Assembly (NCBI RefSeq): GCF_000341285.1
Contig: NW_005178467.1
Location: 124,001-188,000 of the forward strand
Source of the DNA: Galdieria sulphuraria
Taxonomy: Eukaryota; Rhodophyta; Bangiophyceae; Galdieriales; Galdieriaceae
Direction of reading: 5' to 3'
DNA: 64,000 nucleotides
Shown here: one piece after another, positions 18,347 to 38,479 of the stretch
Numbering within the stretch: the first letter of the stretch is position 1
Layout of the letters: every line of letters begins with the position of its first letter
Position numbers and translations under genes: made by a program
The notes under the pieces: model-generated
Databases searched by the model: none
The model's input: the letters and a program-made list of their open reading frames with translations, nothing else
What the model was told of the DNA's origin: nothing

Positions 18347-19681
18347 ATGCGTGAGATTGTACATGTGCAAGCTGGGCAGTGTGGAAACCAAATAGGAACC
18401 AAGTTTTGGGAAGTAATATGTGACGAACACGGCCTCTCACCTGACGGTTTTTATGCAGGAAACACCCCCTCTCAACTGGACCGTATCAACGTCTATTACA
18501 CTGAGGCCTCGGACAAACGTTATGTTCCACGTGCAGTTCTTGTGGACTTGGAACCAGGCACTATGGATGCTATCAAAAGTGGTAAACTTGGAAAAATGTT
18601 TCGCCCAGACAACTTCATCTATGGTCAAAGTGGTGCTGGAAACAACTGGGCTAAAGGTCACTATACAGAAGGAGCAGAGTTAGTTGATGCAGTTTTAGAT
18701 GTAGTGCGTAAGGAAGCAGAAGCATGTGACTGTTTACAAGGATTCCAAGTAACTCACTCACTGGGTGGAGGTACAGGTTCTGGAATGGGTACTTTGCTAA
18801 TTTCTAAGATAAGGGAAGAATATCCTGATCGAATGATGGGAACCTATTCAGTATTGCCCTCTCCAAAAGTGTCTGATACAGTTGTTGAACCTTACAACTG
18901 TATTCTTTCAGTCCACCAGTTGGTAGAAAATGGAGATGAAGTGTTTTGCATAGACAACGAAGCACTCTATAACATTTGTCACAACACCTTAAAGATGAAT
19001 AATCCATCATATAGCGACCTCAATCAACTAGTAACTGCAGTCATGTCAGGTATTACGTGCTCACTTCGTTTTCCGGGACAACTAAACGCAGACTTGCGTA
19101 AATTGGCAACTAATCTTATTCCCTTTCCCCGATTACATTTCTTCATGATTGGATTCGCTCCCCTTGCAGCTCCTGGGACTCAGCAATACAAATCCAGTTC
19201 AGTGGCCGATCTCTGCCAGCAAATGTTCGATTCACGTAACATGATGGCAGCTTGTGATCCTCGACATGGTCGTTACCTCACTGCAGCTGCATATTTCCGA
19301 GGCAAAGTTCCAACAAACGAAATCGACGATCAATTGATGACAGTTCAGAACAAAAATGCTGCTTCATTTGTGGAGTGGATACCTAACAATATCAAAAGCT
19401 CTCTCTGTGATATTCCTCCCAAGGGTATGCAACGTTCGGCAACCTTTATTGGAAATTCCACTGCTATTCAAGAGCTGTTCAAGAGAGTCGGTGAACAATT
19501 TGCAGCAATGTTTCGTCGCAAAGCTTTTCTTCATTGGTATACTGGAGAAGGTATGGACGAAATGGAATTCACCGAAGCCGAAAGCAACATGAGCGATTTG
19601 GTTTCTGAATACCAACAGTATCAGGAAGCCACAATAGATGACGACTTTGGAGATGACGGTGAGGAAGGCGAAGAATATTAA
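18347..19681 (+). CDS. Beta-tubulin, copy 1
   Basis: Polymerises with alpha-tubulin into microtubules. The frame is intronless, 444 residues, the standard length. It opens with [17 protein letters not shown], which contains the MREI tetrapeptide used for co-translational autoregulation of tubulin mRNA in animals. The GTP-binding signature [10 protein letters not shown], the loop [16 protein letters not shown] and the C-terminal core [19 protein letters not shown] are intact. The acidic tail ends [10 protein letters not shown]; a final EEY is the ending typical of alpha-tubulin and is unusual on a beta-tubulin. TTCGTTAG just before the ATG could be the acceptor of a leader intron. Confidence 0.97.
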
Positions 19682-21022: not shown

Positions 21023-22354
21023 TTAAAATGTTTCCTCTTCTATGTCGACATCAAAGTCATCTTCGACAGTAGCTTCTTGATACTGTTGATATTCTGACAC
21101 CAAGTCATTCATGTTACTTTCTGCTTCCGTGAACTCCATTTCATCCATTCCCTCTCCAGTATACCAATGAAGAAAAGCTTTGCGACGAAACATTGCGGTA
21201 AATTGCTCACCAACTCGTTGAAATAGTTCTTGTATGGAGGTAGAATTGCCCACAAACGTTGCTGATTTTTTCATACCTAAAGGAGGAATATCACACAGAG
21301 AGCTTTTGATGTTGTTTGGAATCCATTCAACAAAGTAGGAGGAATTCTTGTTCTGAATGTTAAACATTTGATCATCAATATCTTGTGTTGACATGTTTCC
21401 ACGGAAGTATGCTGCAGCAGTTAAATAGCGACCATGGCGGGGATCACATGCAGCCATCATGTTCTTGGCATCGAACATTTGTTGAGTCAACTCAGAAACA
21501 CTAGCAGAACGATACTGTTGTGAGCCTGGTGAACTTAAGGGTGCAAATCCAATCATGAAGAAATGAAGGCGTGGAAAGGGAATCAAATTGGTAGCCAACT
21601 TTCGTAGATCTGCATTCAACTGTCCTGGGAAACGCAATGAACAAGTAATACCTGACATCACTGCTGAAACCAAATGATTCAAGTCTCCGTAACTAGGATT
21701 GCTGAGCTTCAATGTTCGGAAGCAGATGTCATAAAGTGCTTCATTGTCAATGCAGAATACTTCATCTGCGTTTTCAACCAACTGATGAACGGAAAGAGTA
21801 CAATTATAAGGTTCCACCACAGTATCGGACACCTTTGGGGATGGAACTACAGAATAGGTACCCATCATTCGATCGGGATATTCTTCCCGTATTTTAGAGA
21901 TTAAAAGGGTTCCTAAACCAGAACCTGTTCCACCTCCAAGTGAATGTGTGATTTGAAAGCCTTGCAAGCAGTCACACGACTCTGCTTCTCGCCGGACTAC
22001 ATCTAAGACATTATCTATGAGCTCTGCACCTTCAGTGTAGTGACCTTTTGCCCAGTTGTTTCCGGCACTACTCTGACCATACACAAAGTTGTCTGGGCGA
22101 AAGAGTTTTCCGTATGGACTGGCTTTTACAGCGTCCATTGTCCCTGGTTCCAAGTCTATCAACACAGCACGGGGAACATATCTTCCTCCTGTCGCTTCAC
22201 TGTAGTATACATTGATTCTGTCCAGTTGTGACGGAGAATTTCCTTCGTAAAGTCCGGAGGGGTTGATACCATGTTCCCCGGAGATTACTTCCCAAAACTT
22301 TGAACCTATTTGGTTGCCGCATTGTCCTGCTTGGATATGAACAATTTCCCTCAT
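21023..22354 (-). CDS. Beta-tubulin, copy 2 (divergent)
   Basis: 443 residues, intronless, opening [17 protein letters not shown] and keeping the nucleotide signature [10 protein letters not shown]. It differs from copy 1 at many positions, for example [40 protein letters not shown] and a different tail, [13 protein letters not shown]. The two are therefore old paralogues, not a fresh duplication, although they sit 1.3 kb apart and point towards each other. The tail lacks the EEY ending of copy 1, so the two isotypes may load different modifying enzymes or motors. Confidence 0.96.
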
Positions 22355-27875: not shown

Positions 27876-28737
27876 TTCAATTGGAAGTGAAAATTATAAT
27901 ATTTCTTGAATCGCAGAGTCACGGCAATTAATCAATGGGTTCTTTAGTTTGTGGTCATATCATGCTACATACAAAAAACTATTACTACTGATGCGGCATT
28001 TTGTCTAATATCTTCTTTTGAAACTAAAGAGTTGCTGGTTCTCTTGTTGTCACATTGAAATGGGTTTGCATAGCTCACAACAAAGAGCCCAGTTTGGATC
28101 AATTTAGTTTCTTGTTAAAATGGTTTCAAAAAATATTGTTGTACGCTAAGTTCCTTTTGTAAAAAAGTTGAAAGCTCATACAAACATTTTCCCATCCTTT
28201 GAATAGAAGGAATGAGTATTTCAAGATAACTTTCCGTAGAGCAACTCAGGCTCTTAAAATGTATCTTTGAGAAAAGTATCAGAAAAAACAAACAAATTTC
28301 AAAATGCGACTTGTAAGTAGTTGGGTATGACAGCCATAATGATGAAGTGGGACATACTTTTGAGAACATCTCACAACATGCTCTACGATTGAATACTGTG
28401 TTCATTCAGCTTTGATATCAAATGGTAAAACCAACCTTTTCACTGTTCCTAGTCAAAAGAATGTCATTCGTATTGAAAACTCAAGGATGACCTTTTCTTA
28501 AATGAATACTTCATTTGCTAAATTGTATTAGAAGCTGCATGATTCTGTAAACACCACCTTTTTGGAAAATACAATATCTCAATGAGAGTAAAATTTTGAA
28601 TGTACACAAAATGTTGACAGTCGGAACCAATAAAAAAAAGAAAGATGGAGGTTTTTCTTCCCTTCAAATGCACATAAGGACTGATTGGAGTAACAAATAA
28701 AAGCTTAAAATCCTCAAAATGCTCCCTCCCATCAGCT
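27876..28737. other. About 860 bp without a recognisable gene
   Basis: AT-rich. A 96-codon minus-strand frame at 28115-28405 is Cys/Phe/Ser-rich with no family match and is probably chance. The region should contain the RPN1 promoter and the 5' flank of the tRNA gene. Confidence 0.5.
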
Positions 28738-28829
28738 GCCGATTTAGCTCAGTTGGCTAGAGCGCCAGGCTTTTAACCTGGTGGTCGTGGGTTCGAGTTG
28801 TTCAATCCACGATTATCCCACAGTCGGCG
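28738..28829 (+). tRNA. tRNA-Lys(UUU) with an 18-nt insertion in the T-loop
   Basis: Acceptor GCCGATT pairs with AGTCGGC; D-arm GCTCAGTTGGCTAGAGC; anticodon arm CCAGG-CTTTTAA-CCTGG with anticodon TTT; T-stem GTGGG pairs with CCCAC. Between the T-loop start TTCGAG (ends 28797) and the 3' T-stem CCCAC (28817-28821) lie 19 nt where one is expected, so 18 nt must be removed (28798-28815 or 28799-28816) to give a normal 7-nt loop TTCGAGT. The inserted piece contains CCACGA, complementary to TCGTGG at the 5' side of the T-stem, so the precursor can fold differently. Introns outside the anticodon loop are known from red algae of the Cyanidiophyceae, processed by the tRNA splicing endonuclease. Confidence 0.88.
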
Positions 28830-28831
28830 AG

Positions 28832-28839
28832 TTTTTTTT
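28832..28839 (+). terminator. RNA polymerase III terminator (T8)
   Basis: Eight Ts begin three nucleotides after the discriminator base of the tRNA gene, as expected for Pol III release. Confidence 0.8.
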
Positions 28840-29032
28840 CTGTAGACCTTTCCTTTCGGGTACTATCAAACTTTGATTTTTCATCATCATTCTGAACTGA
28901 AGTTATGCAACTGGATATTGCATTGGTTATTATCAAGGTTTTTTTTCTGGGCTGTTTATGAGGAAGACCCCAAAACTTCATGACCGGCCCGTTGTTTAAT
29001 TTTCAGTGTGCAATTTTCGGCAAGTAGGTGGC

Positions 29033-36904: not shown

Positions 36905-38479
36905 TTACAGCATGTCGTCTAATTGGTTCAATAAGCCAACCATATCTGGTTGGGATAAGTCGTAGCCTGCACAGGAAGCCAATTTTCTTAAAGCAAACAG
37001 CTTAAAGCTGTTTTCCACCATAGGACAAGCAGCAATTTCTTTAGCGGCAGGTAAATAACCAACTTCACCCAAGTCTCTAATCAACACTCTTTGGGTGTAG
37101 TGATGTTCCTCACCAAAGCCTAAAGCACTTAATAAAGGTTGTAAATAGGAAATCTCGCCTGTGCATTGATAGAGTGCTTTATATGCTGCATATTTCACCA
37201 AGGGAATAGGATGTTCTGTGTATGACTTGATCAATGACAGATGCTCATTGGCATGTAAAAAGCCCAAGGCTTTCAAACACCATTCCAAAGGATATTCTAA
37301 ATACTCAGGTCCAACACCCAAGTTGGGAGTATGTGTCATTCTTCTTTGTCTCATTTCGTTACGTTTCCTTTGTTGAAATATATTCTCCAATTTCTCACGA
37401 ACGTCCTGCGAAAGATGTTCCAATTGAAACATTTGGTTGTGTGTACCATCTCTTGATAATATATCATCTTGTTGAAAGCTTTTCCACTCTTTTGTCAATA
37501 TATCCACAAGCACATTCACTACACAACTAGGGAAATATTGAGAACCCTGAATTCTAGCAATCGTTGCCAAAGCTTCTGCACAACGATACCTTAAAAAGGA
37601 ATCAGAGGTTTGGGATAATATATTGGACAATGGAACGATGGCCTTGACAGACCCAATGTTGCCTAAAGCAATTGCTGCCCTTCTTTTCAATGGATAACCT
37701 CCTAAAGCAGTTTGTTCTTGAGAAGTTTGTAAAACAAGTACTAGGGCTTCCTCTGCTTCTACAACTCTATTTTTGGATATCCACCAAAGTGCATAGTAAC
37801 GATAACCACTGTTCTCATGATATAGAATATTGTAAACTGCCTCTTCCACACTACGAGGACAGGCGTCTGTAGAAACTCCGACGGAATTTGCCATTGCTTC
37901 TTCCAACAGAGGAGTATCTGTAGTTATTTCACCAGCTATATAATCAGCCCAAGCTGAGTCTTCCACTGCAACGAAATTGTCATCTTGATCACTGTCCTGT
38001 GAAGATGGTCTGGTTTGTTTCCTGCGAACTGCATAAATGCCTTCCCAACCCAAAGAGTCATATATCTTTCGAAGTCTTGGTTCCTTCAATATGTCGTACG
38101 CCTCTTTTAAGGAATGGAAGGTTGGCTTACTATCTACTTGTACTTCCCCTTTCCTATGGACATCTGGATGCGCAGTCTTTGAGAGTTCTACATATGCCTT
38201 TCGAATATCGTCTGCAGAAGCCGTAGAATCCACTCCCAACACAGAATATGGGTCTTTGTTTTCTTCTTGTGTCTGACTGACCATAACAAGGGGAACTTTG
38301 AGGCGAAAATAGGGTTCTGTTACAAAAGACCTCTTTGAACAACAACATTGACGACGAGGAATCACTTGTGCCCATCGACTAGGAGGAGTATTCTTACGTA
38401 ACTTTATAACAGGTATTTCATAGTTGCTCTTTTTCATACACAGCTTTCCAAAGATCAGGAAACTCAATGGGCTGTTCAT
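36905..38479 (-). CDS. J-domain protein with bilin-lyase-like HEAT repeats, probably plastid
   Basis: A single exon of 524 residues. About 65 N-terminal residues are rich in Ser, Arg and Lys and poor in acid, as in a plastid transit peptide. A J domain follows (KDPYSVLGVDSTASADDIRK, AHPDVHRKG with the HPD motif, LKEAYDILKEPRLRKIYDSL). From about residue 200 there are HEAT repeats of the PBS-lyase type (VEEAVYNILYHENSGYRYYA, LKRRAAIALGNIGSVKAIVP, LRYRCAEALATIARI), as in CpcE/CpcF/NblB proteins that attach or remove phycobilins. Further HEAT-like helices reach the C-terminus (VKYAAYKALYQCTGEISYLQ). The fusion suggests a chaperone-coupled step in phycobilisome assembly or turnover; that function is inference. 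Confidence 0.8.
   Translation of the reverse strand: MNSPLSFLIFGKLCMKKSNYEIPVIKLRKNTPPSRWAQVIPRRQCCCSKRSFVTEPYFRLKVPLVMVSQTQEENKDPYSVLGVDSTASADDIRKAYVELSKTAHPDVHRKGEVQVDSKPTFHSLKEAYDILKEPRLRKIYDSLGWEGIYAVRRKQTRPSSQDSDQDDNFVAVEDSAWADYIAGEITTDTPLLEEAMANSVGVSTDACPRSVEEAVYNILYHENSGYRYYALWWISKNRVVEAEEALVLVLQTSQEQTALGGYPLKRRAAIALGNIGSVKAIVPLSNILSQTSDSFLRYRCAEALATIARIQGSQYFPSCVVNVLVDILTKEWKSFQQDDILSRDGTHNQMFQLEHLSQDVREKLENIFQQRKRNEMRQRRMTHTPNLGVGPEYLEYPLEWCLKALGFLHANEHLSLIKSYTEHPIPLVKYAAYKALYQCTGEISYLQPLLSALGFGEEHHYTQRVLIRDLGEVGYLPAAKEIAACPMVENSFKLFALRKLASCAGYDLSQPDMVGLLNQLDDML

Follow-up and report, generated by a model that had tools for sequence, protein, structure and literature searches.

A predicted ectopic bulge-helix-bulge intron in the T-loop of tRNA-Lys(UUU) in the red alga Galdieria sulphuraria

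The interrupted tRNA-Lys(UUU) gene and its second copy

The window, a stretch of 64,000 nucleotides from Galdieria sulphuraria (contig NW_005178467.1), carries at 28738-28829 on the forward strand a tRNA-Lys gene with the anticodon TTT, which measures 92 nt with its insert and is recognizable from the sequence and by ARAGORN and Rfam. The usual arms and a T-loop of 7 nt (TTCGAGT) are obtained only once 18 nt at position 59/60 (28798-28815) are taken out; the first-pass annotation had stated that the stems are whole only without these 18 nt, and both the sequence and the coordinates are as it described them. The insert lies away from 37/38 and its removal restores the cloverleaf, as in an ectopic intron, and the anticodon loop (CTTTTAA) is unbroken, with no canonical intron at 37/38. 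The ARAGORN call (28737-28812) and the Rfam call (28738-28811, 40.8 bits) both have their 3' end within the insert, and of the 62 Rfam tRNA matches listed for the genome only one scores lower than this gene. In this genome, insert-bearing tRNA genes are given a wrong end or overlooked by ARAGORN and the Rfam model.

The features of the locus are listed in Table 1, in which the A box and the B box were assigned by their consensus. The A box is intact and the intron splits the B box after GGTTCGAG, while the T8 run starts three bases beyond the discriminator G. The T-run behind the tRNA, GTTTTTTTTCTG (28831-28842), is repeated exactly 107 bp downstream, at 28938-28949.

Table 1. Features of the tRNA-Lys(UUU) gene, in window coordinates
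Feature	Coordinates	Strand	Basis
Exon 1, tRNA positions 1-59	28738..28797	+	sequence, fold
Predicted ectopic intron, 18 nt, at 59/60, TTGTTCAATCCACGATTA	28798..28815	+	removal gives 7-nt T-loop; BHB cut rule AG^T / TA^T
Exon 2: U60, T-stem 3' strand, acceptor 3' strand, discriminator G73; CCA not encoded	28816..28829	+	sequence
T-stem 5' strand, GTGGG (49-53)	28787..28791	+	pairs with 28817-28821; T50-A64 is C50-G64 in the second gene
T-stem 3' strand, CCCAC (61-65)	28817..28821	+	fold, comparison with the second gene
TCG (55-57), exon side of the predicted BHB central helix	28793..28795	+	BHB test, folding
Intron CGA, partner of 28793-28795; CGA also in the intron of the second gene	28810..28812	+	BHB test, comparison of copies
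TCGTGG, 5' arm of the rival helix	28785..28790	+	pair probability 0.42-0.45
CCACGA, 3' arm of the rival helix	28807..28812	+	pair probability 0.42-0.45
A-box-like TAGCTCAGTTGG	28745..28756	+	sequence
B box, first eight bases, GGTTCGAG	28790..28797	+	sequence; remaining TCC beyond the intron, 28816-28818
A/T-rich AAATAAAAG, 35-43 bp upstream, candidate TATA-like element	28695..28703	+	sequence; analogy with C. merolae (PMC3978253)
T8 run, likely RNA polymerase III terminator	28832..28839	+	sequence; T10 in the second gene

Elsewhere in the window, the protein of the ORF at 36905-38479 shares 96% identity with a protein of Galdieria sulphuraria and 75% with one of G. partita. Two further ORFs, at 18347-19681 (+) and 21023-22354 (-), are 83% identical and stand tail to tail, 1.3 kb apart; we assume them to be beta-tubulin-like.

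A second Lys(UUU) gene lies at G000:C45:104903-104986 (hereafter the C45 copy). It has a 12-nt insert, AGTGTACGAGCA, at the same position 59/60, and is followed by a run of ten T. Three matches came up when the 92-nt gene was used as the query of a DNA search: the gene itself, the C45 copy and an intronless Lys(CTT) gene on contig C13. Once spliced, the two Lys(UUU) copies differ at only 3 of 74 positions (T50 to C, A64 to G and C72 to T), and the first two of these differences turn T50-A64 into C50-G64, a compensatory change in the T-stem with one base on each side of the insert. This pair, spanning the insert, points to selection on the joined stem and, together with the existence of a second gene interrupted at the same position, argues that the insert did not arise by chance. 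The flanks of the two genes have no clear similarity, and ACGA is nearly all that their inserts have in common. Off the plastid contig, a DNA search that skips very common words turned up no intronless Lys(UUU) gene in the 102-contig assembly; the probable plastid contig has its own intronless Lys(TTT) of bacterial type (L030). The first-pass annotation had called for a comparison of all Lys genes, and had held that a second, intact Lys(UUU) gene, with this copy silent, would refute its reading. The comparison finds both non-plastid Lys(UUU) genes interrupted at 59/60 and the Lys(CTT) gene uninterrupted, and since the search returned no intronless non-plastid Lys(UUU) gene, and the C45 copy itself carries an insert, that objection is not borne out by the present data. 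With its stems intact and no intronless non-plastid counterpart found, the window gene does not resemble a pseudogene. Nor is either Lys(UUU) gene permuted: both are linear, and it is only in the position of the break that they agree with a type IV gene, in which the 3' part comes first and the junction lies at 59/60.

Predicted ectopic tRNA introns in the Galdieria genome

The genome (12.05 Mb, 102 contigs) includes a contig of 158 kb, C36, that carries 20 of the 62 Rfam tRNA matches, with tRNAs of bacterial type. Its GC content is 0.23-0.28 in five loci, versus 0.35-0.39 in five loci on other contigs. C36 is probably the plastid contig; it was left out of the counts, and the other contigs were taken as nuclear. 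A near-identical stretch resembling 18S rRNA is present on five contigs (L084, L088, L092, L109, L124), and rDNA may be dispersed in this genome. The non-plastid set comprises 48 tRNA genes, made up of the other 42 Rfam matches and six genes found by pattern or DNA search. Twelve ectopic introns occur in 11 of these 48 genes: nine in the D-arm (Gln UUG, Val UAC, Arg UCU, two eMet, Glu UUC, Pro AGG, Gly GCC and Tyr) and three in the T-arm (the two Lys UUU at 59/60 and Pro AGG at 55/56). Introns at 37/38 are found in Tyr and Arg(UCG); leaving aside the two Lys(UUU) genes, ten genes thus have 12 more introns, two of them at 37/38. Two ectopic introns interrupt the tRNA-Pro(AGG) gene (L080; G000:C41 ~99647, +): a D-arm intron of 26 nt at 14/15 and a T-loop intron of 15 nt at 55/56, each with all four central BHB pairs. 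The two eMet genes (L059, G000:C10:124670; L060, G000:C44:110501) have differing D-arm introns of 15 and 16 nt, in which a BHB pair C17-G is replaced by T17-A, a second compensatory pair; the 60 nt downstream of both genes are identical.

These counts of introns and genes are lower bounds; no gene was located for iMet, Ser(GCU), Leu(CAA) or Gln(CUG). The Rfam list is incomplete, having missed Leu(CAG) and Gly(CCC), both contiguous by eye, as well as disrupted genes. Searches of the genome with anticodon-arm, D-arm and T-arm patterns found no iMet gene, and a class II D-arm pattern and a T-arm pattern found neither Ser(GCU) nor Leu(CAA). The four genes may be more heavily split, or permuted.

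The introns were tested against the bulge-helix-bulge (BHB) motif as defined in PMC3978253, with bulges of 3 nt flanking a helix of 4 bp, cuts after the second bulge base and G-U pairs allowed; exon ends that could be placed in more than one way were set at the best shift, for real data and shuffles alike. All four central pairs are present in 13 of the 14 introns, or in 12 of 13 without Gly, whereas the maximum reached in 20,000 shuffled sets, with Gly left out, was 5 of 13. When the 3' partner is displaced by 1-4 nt, the match survives in 0 or 1 of the 14 introns. Taken singly, the 12 four-pair introns have shuffle P values from 0.011 to 0.098, and the strength of the result is collective. 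The 3' bulge reads CA^ in 9 of the 12 ectopic introns. Most flanking helices are short. Both Lys copies have an outer helix of 5 pairs and the two anticodon introns one of 5-7, and this helix is limited to 0-2 pairs in the Pro T-loop intron and in each of the eight D-arm introns for which it was determined; the inner helix has 0-5 pairs across the introns (2 in the window Lys copy, 0 in the C45 copy). Since these helices are short, most of the introns do not have the strict hBHBh' form; it is the central helix and the spacing of the bulges that recur. The D-arm intron of Gly(GCC) has only 2 of 4 central pairs when parsed with a cut at 11/12, and an enumeration of all cuts gave 15 four-pair options, 15/16 among them. 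The cut at 15/16 restores the usual D-arm form. Because the BHB guided the choice of this parse, Gly(GCC) was left out of the shuffle test. The sole intron short of four pairs is that of the window gene, in which T55-G57 pair with CGA and T54 faces T; by itself it has 3 of 4 pairs (P 0.22), compared with 4 of 4 for the C45 copy (P 0.08). As judged from the sequence, the tRNA introns of this genome follow a shared BHB rule as a system.

Precursor folds and alternative explanations

Folds were predicted for single strands at 37 C, without protein, and the best folds are unchanged at 45 C. The 92-nt window RNA with its insert folds at -39.2 kcal/mol (z = -5.1 against shuffles), and its minimum-energy fold is an intact cloverleaf that keeps the T-stem and has a different hairpin within the insert and T-loop. 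The first-pass annotation had proposed looking for a BHB in the predicted precursor. Three of its central pairs can form in the window copy, but the fourth is missing and the structure ranks below the minimum-energy fold, lying 4 kcal/mol above it with a probability of about 0.003 for its pairs. In the C45 precursor the BHB is itself the minimum-energy fold (central pair probabilities 0.85-0.93). The competing helix that the same annotation had described, TCGTGG with CCACGA, is real in the window copy (0.42-0.45, versus 0.55 for the T-stem) but largely lost in the C45 copy, where by eye only TCG/CGA is contiguous; this helix therefore does not look conserved as a signal, and was rejected as a splicing signal. 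Group I, group II and spliceosomal introns were set aside at a length of 12-18 nt.

The weaker BHB of the window copy could mean that this gene is decaying, with its good BHB gone and its precursor caught in the rival fold, and that tRNA-Lys(UUU) is supplied by the C45 copy. Its three central pairs, against four in the C45 copy, and the split of its ensemble between two folds are both in line with decay. However, every exon stem of the window copy is intact, its G1-C72 pairs better than the G-U of the C45 copy, the T-run is kept and the T-stem difference is a compensatory pair rather than damage, which makes decay unlikely. A mature tRNA that keeps the insert, with a T-arm larger than usual, would accord with the minimum-energy fold of the window copy, an intact cloverleaf with a hairpin in the T-loop. 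Such a tRNA would have a T-loop of 19 or 25 nt with T55 and C56 paired to the insert, and this pairing would abolish the contacts between the D-loop and the T-loop. The insert also differs in length and sequence between the two copies while the exons are conserved, and the other tRNA inserts of the genome obey the splicing rule; retention is thus extremely improbable. The preferred reading, to which we give a probability of about 0.88, is that 28798-28815 is an ectopic BHB intron at 59/60 of a nuclear tRNA-Lys(UUU), and the predicted target of an endonuclease of the Sen2/Sen34 type.

Putative processing and relation to known systems

Two ORFs with the catalytic domain PF01974 are encoded in the genome, one nearest to Sen34 chains (6z9u, E 2.2e-16) and the other nearest to Sen2 (8iss_B, E 2e-12), and one RtcB ORF spans the whole model (E 2.2e-164). 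We infer that these Sen34-, Sen2- and RtcB-like proteins would act on the Lys(UUU) precursor. RNA polymerase III would transcribe a linear precursor and stop at the T-run. Both Lys(UUU) genes have A/T-rich stretches upstream, and tRNA genes of C. merolae are thought to rely on an upstream TATA-like element (PMC3978253). The T-stem would serve as the outer helix of the BHB, and T54-G57 would pair with CGAN near the 3' end of the intron, with four pairs in the C45 copy and three in the window copy. The endonuclease would then cut after G59 (bulge A58-G59^N) and before U60 (bulge (C/U)A^U), and the exons could plausibly be joined by RtcB. Modification of the T-loop would have to wait for splicing, given that Pus4 of C. 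merolae is inactive on precursors carrying a T-arm intron (PMC9602550). The window precursor must leave its rival fold, and may therefore be spliced less efficiently than the C45 one. Lysine codons in ten ORFs of the window are AAA in 161 of 284 cases (AAG in 123), and Galdieria may be a eukaryote that depends on T-loop splicing for reading AAA codons.

Ectopic tRNA introns of C. merolae were reportedly described by Soma in 2007 and 2013, the 2013 paper being, it is said, the main catalogue of its tRNAs. The first-pass annotation took the Galdieria gene to belong to a relative of the Cyanidioschyzon processing system, and this view is supported: both algae are placed in the class Cyanidiophyceae, both non-plastid Lys(UUU) genes carry the insert, the BHB helix recurs and there are relatives of Sen2, Sen34 and RtcB. 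No report of ectopic tRNA introns in Galdieria appears in the listed titles and abstract openings of publications on tRNA introns, tRNA genes and permuted tRNAs of Galdieria or Cyanidiophyceae, a survey with most subscription papers outside its scope. The Galdieria Lys(UUU) intron is likely an ectopic T-loop BHB intron of a kind known in another lineage, which speaks against ectopic BHB tRNA introns being peculiar to C. merolae.

Introns in the D- and T-arms of tRNA genes are also described for the nucleomorph of Guillardia theta, with excision confirmed by RT-PCR (Kawach 2005, as cited in PMC4090602 and PMC3978253). As described there, some of these introns are only 3 nt long and many have no defined BHB, whereas in Galdieria both the central helix and the spacing of the bulges follow a regular pattern. 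Archaeal non-canonical introns share with the Galdieria intron the BHB logic and positions that include 59/60 (PMC4090602), but the Galdieria gene is eukaryotic, CCA is not encoded and the Sen2/Sen34 relatives are of eukaryotic type. A further likeness is to C. merolae, a red alga of the same class, with short BHB introns in the D- and T-arms, several of them in some genes (Nagato 2022, PMC9602550), and with Sen2 and Sen34 (PMC3978253), matching the Sen2/Sen34-like ORFs of Galdieria. The cis T-arm introns reported for C. merolae include those at 53/54 in Ile(UAU) (PMC9602550) and 55/56 in Gly(CCC) (PMC3978253, Table 1), in contrast to 59/60 in Galdieria Lys(UUU), and Ile(UAU), with three introns in C. 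merolae, is intronless in Galdieria (L008).

The tRNA-Lys(TTT) of C. merolae is listed as a circularly permuted gene of type IV with its junction at 59/60 (PMC3978253, Table 1), and is thus the same tRNA broken at the same point of the T-loop as in Galdieria. Its 3' part stands ahead of the 5' part with 38 bp between them, whereas the Galdieria gene has the normal order and a cis intron at the break. Permuted genes have been proposed to derive from tandem copies of an intron-bearing tRNA gene that lost their outer halves (PMC3978253). By its sequence, the Galdieria gene matches the intron-bearing state that this proposal requires, for the same tRNA and the same bond, and T-loop inserts may be a route by which permuted tRNA genes arise. 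A permutation at 59/60 is listed for 3 of 42 C. merolae anticodons (PMC3978253), and a random match on one of these has a chance of about 7%. Eight of the ten permuted C. merolae anticodons (PMC3978253) were located in the Galdieria genome (Leu TAA, Leu CAG, Thr CGT, Thr AGT, Gly CCC, Ala TGC, Arg CCT and Lys TTT), and seven of these eight, all but Lys TTT, are contiguous and intronless. Position 59/60 is also a recurrent site, used by archaeal introns (PMC4090602) and by permuted genes of Thermofilum (PMC3978253). In view of the random match and of the seven contiguous genes, a common origin of the Galdieria intron and the C. merolae junction is held tentatively, at slightly less than even odds; if true, it would be a gene-for-gene match between the intron-bearing and the permuted form of one eukaryotic tRNA. 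Because the break falls at one bond of one tRNA in these two related algae, as an intron in Galdieria and as a permutation in C. merolae, the proposal that permuted genes derive from intron-bearing ones becomes testable across the class through its Lys(UUU) loci.
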